From: a virus
Direction: 5' to 3' (one strand)
IMG/VR virus record: IMGVR_UViG_3300032113_000028
Location: 1-20,747 of that record
DNA: 20,747 nt
Numbering within the stretch: the first letter of the stretch is position 1; each line of letters opens with the position of its first letter. Below the pieces are notes generated by a model that saw only the letters and a program-made list of their open reading frames with translations, had not been told where the DNA came from and did no database searches. The position numbers were made by a program, and so were the translations under genes. Positions 7,136 through 17,029 of this stretch are shown here, in pieces.

Positions 7136-7558
7136 ATGTCAAGAAATACAAATAAAATCACGCTTAATAAGGGGCGTGATGAAGGTAAAGTTTTAGTTTT
7201 AACTGAAATGAGTGCATGGAACTCTAACAGATGGGCTATAAAAATGGGTCGCCAATTAGCTAAATCAGGGGCAAACCTACCAGCAGAGGTAACAGACTTA
7301 GGGATTGCTGGCGTATTAACGGTTATACAAGAAGAGGGGGATATGATTAATAGCCCTACTTTCTTTAAATCGTTGTTATCAATAGCGGCTAACGTTGATG
7401 AGGATAACTTGTTCTCATTACTAGATGAGCTATTAACGTGCGTAATGTTTCAGACCCCTGAGGGTCATGAGGTGCAATTTGATAGCGAGCAGTTAGAGGA
7501 ATCAGCTAGTTTTAACACTGTTTATTCGGCTGTGTTTCAATTGCATAATTTTTTTTAA
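7136..7558 (+). CDS. Tail assembly chaperone, short (zero-frame) product
   Basis: This is the 140-residue product that ends at the TAA at 7556-7558. It lies between tube and tape measure, where contractile- and siphotail phages encode the chaperone pair (lambda G/GT type) that holds the tape measure during tail assembly. Visible features are an N-terminal strand region (KGRDEGKVLVLTEMSAW), a central helical domain with WAIKMGRQLAKSGA and MINSPTFFKSLLSIAA, and a C-terminal LLTCVMFQTPEGHEVQF. Its last codons are AAT TTT TTT, forming a slippery run directly before the stop. The start is coupled to the tube gene with a 6-base gap. Confidence 0.75.
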   Translation: MSRNTNKITLNKGRDEGKVLVLTEMSAWNSNRWAIKMGRQLAKSGANLPAEVTDLGIAGVLTVIQEEGDMINSPTFFKSLLSIAANVDEDNLFSLLDELLTCVMFQTPEGHEVQFDSEQLEESASFNTVYSAVFQLHNFF

Positions 7559-7779
7559 CTAGGCAACCCCTAGAAAACTACAGACCGTACAAAATAGAGC
7601 GGCACAAAAACGAGGCGTTAATGATTACTTATGCTAATTTTTCCCCCATATTAGGGGGGATTATTAACGCTAGACTAGCAACAGTCAGGGAACTGCAGGA
7701 GTTTTATAGTATGAATGATGCTTTAGATATGTATGAGGTTATGACGGTCGACAACTATAACAAGCGAGTGTTAGAGTAA
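7136..7779 (+). CDS. Tail assembly chaperone, -1 frameshift fusion product
   Basis: Reading 7136-7555, slipping back one base and continuing 7555-7779 gives a 214-residue protein: 140 residues plus 74 residues of the -1 frame, ending at TAA 7777-7779. The extension begins LTRQPLENYRPYKIERH and ends with the helical segment ELQEFYSMNDALDMYEVMTV, then NYNKRVLE. That type of acidic helical C-terminus is typical of the second chaperone domain (lambda T-like). The -1 frame has stops at 7507, 7513 and 7546 and no start before 7621, so the extension can hardly be reached except by slippage. The fusion would bind the tape measure while the short form binds tube subunits. The extension ORF is frame-correct in the sequence; the frameshift itself is inferred. 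Confidence 0.72.
7549..7573 (+). other. Programmed -1 ribosomal frameshift site
   Basis: Eight T residues (7549-7556) supply the heptamer T TTT TTT in the correct register (zero-frame codons at 7550 and 7553). It is followed at once by the zero-frame stop TAA (7556-7558). Three bases after the heptamer a small stem-loop can form: CTAGG (7559-7563) with CCTAG (7569-7573) and a 5-base loop. A stop codon in the next site and a following stem both favour slippage in known cases. The stem is short, and its spacing is shorter than the usual 5-9 bases. Confidence 0.7.
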
Positions 7780-7904
7780 TGAAGATAATGTTAAAATGGA
7801 TGGGCGGAAAAGCAAGTAAGATAATCCCAGCTTTTCCTAAGCATAACGGCTATATAGAACCGTTTTGCGGGGGGTTATCTATCGAATTGTTGATATTCTT
7901 ATGA
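7779..7904 (+). pseudogene. Remnant of a Dam-type DNA adenine methyltransferase, N-terminal 41 codons
   Basis: A 41-codon frame begins at an ATG overlapping the chaperone stop (TAATG at 7777-7781) and ends at TGA 7902-7904. It reads LKWMGGKASKIIPAFP followed by GYIEPFCGG. These are the FLKWAGGK and YIEPFxGGG motifs of class alpha (D12/Dam) adenine methyltransferases, which bind the methyl donor AdoMet. Intact enzymes have about 260-280 residues with the catalytic DPPY motif further on; here the similarity stops after GGLSIEL and the frame closes. The reading frame runs into the tape measure gene: TGA overlaps its ATG (ATGA at 7901-7904). It is probably what is left of an ancestral dam gene after an internal deletion, kept as a coupling cistron. 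It cannot be catalytic. Confidence 0.75.
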
Positions 7905-10222
7905 GCATTATTGATTCGTTAATTGTCGAGCTAAAGATAGACGCTAGTGACTTTAGCCGTGGGCAAAAGAAAGCAAAGGAGGGCATGGCAGTCCTTCAAA
8001 AAGGAGCTAAAAGAACGGCTTTAGTGTCTATAAAGGGCGGCAAAGATATACAAACGTCGCAAAACAGGTTGAGCAATAATAGCACAAAAACAGCCCGCTC
8101 AATGAGTAAAAGTGGTCAAGATGCTAGTGGTTTCTTTAGTAAAATAAGGAATGAAGCCATCATGATGCTCGGTGTATTTACGGCTGGGACTGGTTTAAAA
8201 AACTTTGCTCAAAACACTATCAACGCCGCGTCATCAACAGGAATACTAGCCTCACAAATTGGCGTTAATATCAGTCAGCTGTCAGCAATGGAGGCGGCGG
8301 CGCAAAGAGCCGGGGCGGCAAGCGGCTCAATGTCTACTCAATTAGCAGAGGATGCTAAGAAAAGGGCTGATGTTAAGGCAGGTGGTAGTGTTACCGACAT
8401 ATACGGTTCTAAGTTTATCCAGTTTGGCGGCGACTATAAAAACATGGATACCGCTGAAAACCAGCTAAAGGAATACGCTAAAATATATGGCAACCTAAAA
8501 AATAAAGCCGTGTCAGATATGGGCATGGATGAAAAGGGGGCTGACGCATTTGCCTCTCAGCAAATAACTGAGACAGGCTTAAGCGGCGACCTTATCCCCT
8601 TAATTAATAAGGGGTCTGCTTCATTAGAGAGGCAGATAAAGATACAACTGTCAAGGATAGCGATAACCAATAAAGACGCTAAGGCGGCGCGTAGAAGTAA
8701 GGAGGCGTGGTTCGATCTATCGCAAAAATTCGATCAGGTATCGCAAAGAGTAGTAATGGCTCTTATCCCTAGCCTTGAGAGGTTAACTGAGTGGCTGGGA
8801 CGGATTGAACTACCCAATGCTAGGGAGATAGCTGACACTATTGCAGTATGGACTGGTAAATTAGAGACGTTTATAGATGTAGCAAAGAACGCGGCAAAAA
8901 AGATTGACGTGTTTGTTGAAAGTATTGGCGGATGGGTTACAGTTCTAAAGGTTCTTGTCGGGATTAAGCTGTTAGCGTGGGGTATTGGGTTAGCCACTAT
9001 AGTCACAGGGTTAGCAGGATTTACCAGTGGAGCAGGGTTAGCGGCTGGTGCGGCTAAGTTATTGTCAGGGGCGTTAGTTCCCTTATTTGGCGTTATAGCG
9101 GCTGGTGCGGCTGGTGCGTGGGTAGGAGATAAGATAAACGATGCCTTACCTCAGGACATTAAAAATTCCCTGCGAGATACATTAGGCAAGGGGGTCGCTA
9201 AGTCCATGGCTTTTTTTGGTCATGAGGAATCTAAAGAGGCGGTTAATCCTAGTTACAAAGGGACGGGTGGCATATCTAAGGTGGGGTCTGTAGCTTCTAT
9301 AATTCAAAGTGGCGAATCGGGAACGCGAGAATACAACGCTTACAACAGAGGTTCGAGCAAGCTTGACCGTCGTGGAGGAACGCCCTCACAAAATATAGCG
9401 GGTCTGACTATCGGCGAAATACAAAGACGGCAAAAGCTAAAGCATGGGGATAAGCAAAGACTGTTTGCGGTCGGTAAATACCAAGTGATTAAGGACACTT
9501 TATCCGAGGCGGTTAACAGCATGGGTTTAAAGAAAACTGATAGGTTTAGCCCTGAAGTACAGGATAAGATATTCTCTAAGTTTCTAGCTGGGAAACGGCG
9601 CAAAGCAATGAAGAGTTATATTACTGGTAAGAGTAATAACAAAAACCAGGCGATACTGTCAGCATCTAAAGAGTGGGCAAGCATTGCAGACCCTAGGACG
9701 GGTAGATCATACTACGCAGGTAAGGGAGGCAATAAAGCTCATATATCAACAAAAAAAATGGGGGATAGCTTTGAGAATGCAAGGAAAATATACGCACAAA
9801 ACAAGAAAAAGGGGCTGTCAGACGACCAAAGCTATCATTTAGCACTACAAGGCGTTAATCATGCAAAAAAAAATATATCAAGAAAAAAAACGCCGCGAAA
9901 AGACTTTAAAATAAAAAGAGTTAGGAATAAAGAAACTGGCAAACTTGAGAATGTAAAAGTTCCCAACAAGCCTCCTCTTAAAACTAAGCCTTTTAAGATT
10001 AAGACAGTTAAAGATGCTAAAACAGGAAAGCTAAAAAGGCTTAACGTACCACCTAGAATACCACAATCACAATTAGCATCAACAGGGTCTAGCACGGTTA
10101 AAACGCAAAAGAATAATATTGTCATTAACGTTAAATCAACAGACCCAAAGGAGGCTGCTATTGAGATTAAAACAACGCTAGACGAGTCATTAACTAGTAA
10201 CTTTATATCGGGGGTTTTATGA
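7901..10222 (+). CDS. Tape measure protein with lysozyme-like domain
   Basis: This 773-residue protein sets tail length and fills the tube before injection. I chose the ATG at 7901 (MSIIDSLIVELKIDASDFSRG). It overlaps the upstream TGA and gives the N-terminus typical of the family; the longer frame from 7865 would read through the dam remnant. Residues 1-340 are mostly helical, with Ala/Gly/Lys-rich coils. About 340-410 are hydrophobic (WVTVLKVLVGIKLLAWGIGL, then AAGAAKLLSGALVPLFGVIA), a candidate membrane-channel segment. Residues about 460-640 form a muralytic domain: IIQSGESGTREYNAYNRG (E472 is the likely catalytic acid), NIAGLTIGEIQRRQ, FAVGKYQVIKDTL, RFSPEVQDKIF and KEWASIADPRTGRSYYAG. 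The C-terminus is basic with a 29-residue repeat. It likely cuts the host peptidoglycan during DNA entry. Confidence 0.85.
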   Translation: MSIIDSLIVELKIDASDFSRGQKKAKEGMAVLQKGAKRTALVSIKGGKDIQTSQNRLSNNSTKTARSMSKSGQDASGFFSKIRNEAIMMLGVFTAGTGLKNFAQNTINAASSTGILASQIGVNISQLSAMEAAAQRAGAASGSMSTQLAEDAKKRADVKAGGSVTDIYGSKFIQFGGDYKNMDTAENQLKEYAKIYGNLKNKAVSDMGMDEKGADAFASQQITETGLSGDLIPLINKGSASLERQIKIQLSRIAITNKDAKAARRSKEAWFDLSQKFDQVSQRVVMALIPSLERLTEWLGRIELPNAREIADTIAVWTGKLETFIDVAKNAAKKIDVFVESIGGWVTVLKVLVGIKLLAWGIGLATIVTGLAGFTSGAGLAAGAAKLLSGALVPLFGVIAAGAAGAWVGDKINDALPQDIKNSLRDTLGKGVAKSMAFFGHEESKEAVNPSYKGTGGISKVGSVASIIQSGESGTREYNAYNRGSSKLDRRGGTPSQNIAGLTIGEIQRRQKLKHGDKQRLFAVGKYQVIKDTLSEAVNSMGLKKTDRFSPEVQDKIFSKFLAGKRRKAMKSYITGKSNNKNQAILSASKEWASIADPRTGRSYYAGKGGNKAHISTKKMGDSFENARKIYAQNKKKGLSDDQSYHLALQGVNHAKKNISRKKTPRKDFKIKRVRNKETGKLENVKVPNKPPLKTKPFKIKTVKDAKTGKLKRLNVPPRIPQSQLASTGSSTVKTQKNNIVINVKSTDPKEAAIEIKTTLDESLTSNFISGVL

Positions 10223-16522: not shown

Positions 16523-16533
16523 CGAGCATTAAA

Positions 16534-16560
16534 AAAGGGGCATTTACGCCCCTTTGTTCT
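16534..16560. terminator. Rho-independent terminator, probably bidirectional
   Basis: An 8-bp stem AAAGGGGC (16534-16541) pairs with GCCCCTTT (16548-16555) around a 6-base loop. It is followed by TTTGTTCT on the plus strand. On the minus strand the same stem is followed by a run of six T (complement of the A run at 16531-16536). It lies between the rightward late operon and the leftward small genes, so it can end both convergent transcripts. Confidence 0.85.
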
Positions 16561-16571
16561 AAGCTGACGTG

Positions 16572-16676
16572 TTAATATAGTATATCAATATTAAGATCAT
16601 CCTCTCCGTTTCCAGTGTCATTTTTAGGTATGAAAATGAGTACCAATATCACCAATATCACTAGTATTCTGTTCAT
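16572..16676 (-). CDS. 34-residue single-pass membrane microprotein
   Basis: This short ORF encodes a positively charged N-terminus (MNR), a strongly hydrophobic run ILVILVILVLIFIP, and then an acidic hydrophilic tail (KNDTGNGEDDLNIDILY). It reads as one membrane helix of about 15-18 residues with the charged C-terminus probably outside the cytoplasm by the positive-inside rule. It lies 11 bases after the stop of the 67-residue gene and has no strong ribosome site, so coupling is likely. The terminator comes right after it. No family is recognised. Possible roles for such proteins include superinfection exclusion, a small holin-like lysis factor, or a regulator; none is shown here. Confidence 0.5.
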   Translation of the reverse strand: MNRILVILVILVLIFIPKNDTGNGEDDLNIDILY

Positions 16677-16687
16677 CTTATGCTATG

Positions 16688-16891
16688 CTATGTTGACTTA
16701 AAAAGTGCGTCCTCACGGAGCTTTAAACGCTCGTCCAATGAACGCAGATATGTAAACATTGCTCGTGCTTGTGTTGTTAAAATTTCGCTATCACGCTGAA
16801 GAAGCCCCCTAAACTCAGACCCTTTAGAGTAGTTAATTAGTACGTTCAATCGCCCAATGAGTTCAAAACGTTCCTGTAAAATATTATTCAT
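16688..16891 (-). CDS. 67-residue helical protein of unknown function
   Basis: This leftward gene has a good ribosome site (AGGGG five bases before its ATG in its own direction) and lies below a near-consensus promoter, so it is probably real. The protein is mainly helical, rich in Leu, Arg and Glu (ILQERFELIGRLNVLINYS and LRSLDERLKLREDALFK), and could form a coiled coil. There is no signal peptide or obvious DNA-binding motif. It is the first gene of a two-gene cassette set against the direction of all neighbours. No family is recognised. Confidence 0.6.
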   Translation of the reverse strand: MNNILQERFELIGRLNVLINYSKGSEFRGLLQRDSEILTTQARAMFTYLRSLDERLKLREDALFKST

Positions 16892-16922
16892 AGCTACCCC
16901 TGTAATTTAATTAGAATAGAGC

Positions 16923-16950
16923 ATTGTAACAGGTATTTTACTAATGTCAA
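16923..16950 (-). promoter_or_regulatory. Sigma-70 promoter for the leftward cassette
   Basis: On the minus strand TTGACA (16950-16945) and TACAAT (16928-16923) are separated by 16 bases, with 6/6 and 5/6 matches to consensus. Predicted transcription starts near 16916, and the first ATG is at 16891. An 8-bp sequence TTACAATG (minus strand) overlaps the -10 (16929-16922) and recurs upstream of the -35 (16963-16956). That pairing is a possible operator. Confidence 0.75.
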
Positions 16951-16976
16951 GTAATCATTGTAAATCACCTCCCCTC

Positions 16977-17003
16977 TTGACAGCACCCTATTAACATGAT
17001 AAT
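16977..17003 (+). promoter_or_regulatory. Divergent promoter for the replication genes
   Basis: TTGACA (16977-16982) is followed after 15 bases by GATAAT (16998-17003). The first ATG of the replication block is at 17030, with AGGAG at 17019-17023. The two divergent promoters have their -35 boxes 26 bases apart, so a single regulator between them could affect both. Confidence 0.55.
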
Positions 17004-17029
17004 GTAAAACACCCAATTAGGAGAATTAA

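Follow-up and report, generated by a model that had tools for sequence, protein, structure and literature searches.

What is a frame of 41 codons doing between the tail assembly chaperone and the tape measure protein (TMP) genes of a phage, where it overlaps both of its neighbors? The DNA in which it occurs, the whole of which is here called the window, is a virus record of 20,747 bases, with head and tail genes and part of the replication genes. A 507-nt gap (16523-17029) separates the tail genes from the replication genes and contains a minus-strand frame of 67 codons (16688-16891). The phage is of the contractile-tailed type, with a DUF3383 protein as its sheath, and the identity of this sheath to the nearest named phages is about 31-35%. 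Searches for close relatives with single queries (sheath, TMP, MCP and baseplate J) recovered none that was close, and the frame at 7779-7904 is represented by one sequence, as a single case. A first-pass annotation had read it as the cut 5' end of a Dam methylase gene, retained as it couples translation into the TMP gene.

The 41-codon frame and its relationship to Dam methylases

The features around the frame all lie on the plus strand. The tail assembly chaperone G (7136-7558) matches PHROG_1932 (E 2.4e-20) and also the Pfam family Phage_TAC_15, the latter at 4.3e-4 and slightly under the curated cut-off. At the 3' end of G lies a run of eight T residues (7549-7556), from which the -1 frame is open through 7779. 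As judged from the sequence, this run is likely to be a programmed -1 slippery site comparable to those of other tail chaperones, by which ribosomes would pass from G into the frame of T. The T part (7621-7779), that is the C-terminal part of the predicted frameshift product, matches PHROG_3976 (3.4e-11) and is present in 190 of 201 loci. It is followed by the 41-codon frame (7779-7904), whose translation is MKIMLKWMGGKASKIIPAFPKHNGYIEPFCGGLSIELLIFL and a stop, and then by the TMP gene (7901-10222; PHROG_2013 and PHROG_9570). The overlaps that the first-pass annotation described at both ends are as stated there: the stop TAA of the T frame (7777-7779) shares a base with the ATG of the small frame (7779-7781) in a TAATG (7777-7781), and the stop TGA of the latter (7902-7904) overlaps the TMP ATG (7901-7903) in an ATGA (7901-7904). 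A chimeric assembly was considered as the origin of this junction and is unlikely, with T and TMP being adjacent in relatives and the G+C content being alike on either side (39.8% and 40.8%). No Rfam family or tRNA was found.

The first part of the frame (7779-7883) matches the N-terminus of Dam and contains the AdoMet-binding motifs of D12/Dam enzymes, WxGGK and EPFxGG, in the form of a motif X-type WMGGK (7797-7811) and a motif I YIEPFCGG (7851-7874). The frame matches PHROG_56 'DNA methyltransferase' at 2.7e-8, and the best E-value against phages in tblastn is 7e-7. The search against the D12 family that had been proposed earlier recovers PF02086 (E 0.0045, profile positions 1-36 of 253), its score of 17.2 bits against a curated cut-off of 22 being a shortfall expected for a 31-residue piece. 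At the DNA level, the 41 bases at 7833-7873 align to the dam gene of Pseudomonas phage PseuP_222 with 85% identity (E 2e-3), while the nearest Dam protein (L095) shows 62% identity over 37 residues. On these sequence matches the N-terminal part is genuine D12/Dam homology, beyond what chance would give. The catalytic DPPY motif and the target-recognition part occur neither in the 41 codons nor elsewhere in the contig, as had been noticed for the catalytic part before, and no second D12 piece was found in the contig. By comparison, nearly all of the 80 nearest viral loci have a dam gene of full length, roughly 240-300 codons, the apparent exceptions being mostly cut by contig ends. As the DPPY and target-recognition parts are missing, the frame is a remnant and not an active member of the D12/Dam family, and its product can have no enzyme activity.

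The remaining stretch (7884-7904) encodes ELLIFL and the stop, and resembles the Dam C-terminus. The pattern EL[LIVM][IVYL] occurs within the last 14 residues of 58 of 81 related Dam proteins, and the Dam that is nearest by its N-terminus ends in FELLIRNF. On a profile of the family tails only 7 of 67,491 natural stop-ended frames score as well as the tail of the remnant (p 1e-4), the fraction among random tails with the composition of the window being 4e-4, and an independent alignment also places ELLI on the Dam C-terminus. The residues following ELxI are two in the remnant and usually three in Dam C-termini. The match was noticed post hoc, yet it is the one test demanded by the idea that a whole gene once lay here. 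Its outcome argues for the in-frame loss of about 210 internal codons rather than for a cut 5' end alone. Hence, of the deletion scar suggested in the first-pass annotation, the dead dam remnant stands, whereas the part by which the 5' end alone had been left is probably not correct. Going by both matches, the frame is probably a dam gene that kept its two ends and lost its middle through an in-frame deletion. A random deletion stays in frame with a chance of 1/3.

The chaperone/tape measure junction in related phages

We located the T and TMP starts in 153 relatives, all of them distant, with sheath proteins that share about 30-40% amino-acid identity with that of the window. The stop of T lies within a few bases of the TMP start in most of them. 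Several automatic gap calls (L081, L239, L254 and L265) were start mis-assignments or rearrangements, and these junctions were read by eye. In none of these 153, each with T and TMP both identified, was an intact dam seen at the junction, and the only dam that the dam profile detects near a tail module, that of L031, is about 5 kb farther downstream. The first-pass annotation had asked for an intact dam at this position and had named its absence from all relatives as evidence against the proposal; formally, this absence is what we observe. Given that these relatives are all distant and that several have other inserts at the junction, it is no argument against a former insertion.

Seven loci have an inserted gene exactly at the T/TMP junction, which encodes or resembles a mobile nuclease of the HNH or NUMOD3 type. 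These are an intact HNH_3 gene in L010 and L254, an HNH gene in L190, HNH-like genes in L018, L019 and L194, with an HHVDHIVPL motif recognized by eye (those of L018 and L194 have no Pfam match), and, in L075, a NUMOD3 gene with the look, again by eye, of a GIY-YIG nuclease. The L075 insert overlaps both T and TMP by 4 nt, an arrangement of the type seen in the dam remnant. The junction is empty in L012 and occupied in L018, two loci that are 97.7% identical upstream of it and 98.1% identical in TMP; between the identical flanks L018 differs by the insert and by a replaced last stretch of T, as co-conversion predicts. At the sequence level this pair shows a recent gain or loss of the insert, and the relatives show the T/TMP junction to be a recurrent insertion point for foreign genes. 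In the window, no nuclease domain was found in the insert, the D12 piece being the only match.

Two further observations concern such inserts. In L086 the stretch 9562-9870 is a seemingly decayed insert at the T/TMP junction, with stops in its only longer frames. In the records of L018 (9567-10271) and L295, the junction HNH-like gene is matched by a second copy, 44% identical and located about 11.5 kb upstream.

Initiation of the tape measure gene and alternative readings

The TMP start at ATG 7901 is backed by homology, with MSIIDSLIVELKIDASDF of the window aligning to MPNIIDSLIVTLGLDSSNF of Pantoea phage PA-1. It has no Shine-Dalgarno (SD) sequence: the duplex with the anti-SD has a free energy of +0.1 kcal/mol. 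Among the 23 starts in the window it is the only one without anti-SD pairing, the other 22 pairing at -3.1 kcal/mol or better, and its pairing is the weakest among 154 junctions, which bears out the earlier remark that TMP has no clear ribosome site. In relatives, the ribosome site of TMP sits in the end of T. In the window that end, with a weak SD-like site AAGCGAGT (7762-7769; -4.1 kcal/mol), precedes the remnant. The RNA fold at the junction is no better than that of shuffled sequences.

We propose that a D12/Dam-type methyltransferase gene would have been inserted between T and TMP, flush with both by way of the TAATG and ATGA overlaps, and would then have lost about 210 codons in frame, so that about 35 codons of the N-terminus and about 6 of the C-terminus were left. 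By this insertion TMP would have been cut off from its ribosome site, which in relatives is retained within the last part of T. The 41 codons would be read by ribosomes that come in from T or begin at 7779, and after terminating at the ATGA these ribosomes would start again on TMP. Short stop/start overlaps (-4 or -1 nt) and a downstream gene without an independent ribosome site are taken as marks of coupling; the former are found at both ends of the remnant, and TMP is such a gene. In Escherichia coli and Haloferax re-initiation is almost gone once the gap measures about 20-40 nt, and of the upstream gene the last 15 nt are enough for it (PMC10666635); in the window a 121-nt gap without an open frame would consequently uncouple TMP from T. 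An SD often aids re-initiation and is not always required, and its removal usually lowers re-initiation (PMC6728339), so that the relay may be weak. As T is itself reached by the likely -1 slip at the run of eight T residues, the supply of TMP could depend on frameshifting, unless ribosomes start at 7779.

We consider a ribosome relay the best reading and the most likely function of the remnant, with the stub probably serving now only as a candidate carrier of ribosomes from T to TMP. The explanation as a whole, by which a formerly intact dam was inserted, underwent internal deletion and became a relay, is one that we favor with some reserve. Its strongest form, in which the collapsed dam would be an obligatory relay, with TMP made only via the fossil frame and its supply tied to the chaperone frameshift, is conceivable, and we lean slightly against it.

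Several alternatives bear on parts of this explanation. The dam remnant may be real and the overlap incidental, with TMP initiating independently. The ATG-AGC of TMP itself supplies the ATGA, so that a third of all frames entering it would end there. Genes with weak SDs do exist, as in L186, L029 and L270, whose TMP junctions are also nearly without SD pairing, and 24% of the non-start ATGs in the window likewise lack pairing; taken alone, the missing SD of TMP could be due to chance, even if it is an outlier among genes. Against such independent initiation stand the pairing of all the remaining 22 starts in the window and the surroundings of the TMP start, which are not unusually open, and we regard it as unlikely. 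A less probable scenario still is that no more than the 5' end of a dam was ever captured, for example during break repair at a homing-endonuclease site, with the terminal ELLI arising by chance. That mobile nucleases use the same site in relatives, and that such nucleases sit at gene-exchange boundaries (PMC10448857), would fit this capture, whereas the C-terminal match (p 1e-4 to 4e-4), which is to the same subfamily as the N-terminal one, speaks against it.

Finally, a -1 slip at the run of six G residues (7869-7874) could join TMP to the N-terminus of Dam, or such a fusion could be hidden by a homopolymer error. The TMP frame is open from 7847, and a -1 shift at this run would indeed enter TMP; nevertheless, in the frame of the remnant it is not a canonical slippery heptamer (the P-site tRNA would face CGG), the TMP N-termini of relatives begin with MxxIIDSL without an extension, and no supporting RNA structure was found, making a fusion highly improbable.

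Comparison with known systems

The remnant shares 35 N-terminal residues, including WMGGK and EPFCGG, and the C-terminal ELLI before the stop with the D12 adenine methyltransferases (PF02086, PHROG_56) of the subfamily found in VP882, Shewanella MuM16-1 and PseuP_222. Unlike these it lacks about 210 residues, among them the catalytic DPPY part, and it lies between the chaperone and TMP rather than, for instance, after the tail gene D. Dam genes of the same subfamily are in or beside the tail genes of several phages (L095, L088 and L089), and in VP882 dam is directly 3' of a gene D-like tail gene.

As to the proposed coupling, the start site of gene VII of phage f1 (cited in PMC12548453) reportedly works only through coupling. 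The likeness lies in a structural gene with a start that is barely active by itself, as would hold for TMP, and the difference in the upstream gene, which is functional there. The MIRU elements of mycobacteria are small inserts with an ORF coupled to the invaded gene by a 4-nt overlap (reviewed in PMC12548453). They share with the remnant a short inserted frame whose end falls on the ATGA of the next gene, and provide a precedent for the principle of a coupling insert; the remnant differs as a degraded phage enzyme gene and a single case, not a mobile repeat. Free-standing homing endonuclease genes occur in phage structural operons (PMC10448857), and the nucleases of related phages use the same T/TMP insertion point, whereas the window has a methylase remnant and no nuclease. 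The case suggests how a foreign gene can enter a structural operon with tight overlaps and decay there without shutting off the gene that follows, the thing kept in such decay being the reading frame and its two overlaps and not the protein. It also indicates the chaperone/TMP junction as a recurrent insertion point of mobile genes in this phage group, and decay of this kind may account for some of the very small frames that are left unannotated in the tail operons of phages.

Separately, residues 435-632 of TMP (about 9200-9800 of the window) show 38% identity to Synechococcus myovirus proteins (PHROG_30077), and this region is possibly an acquired domain.
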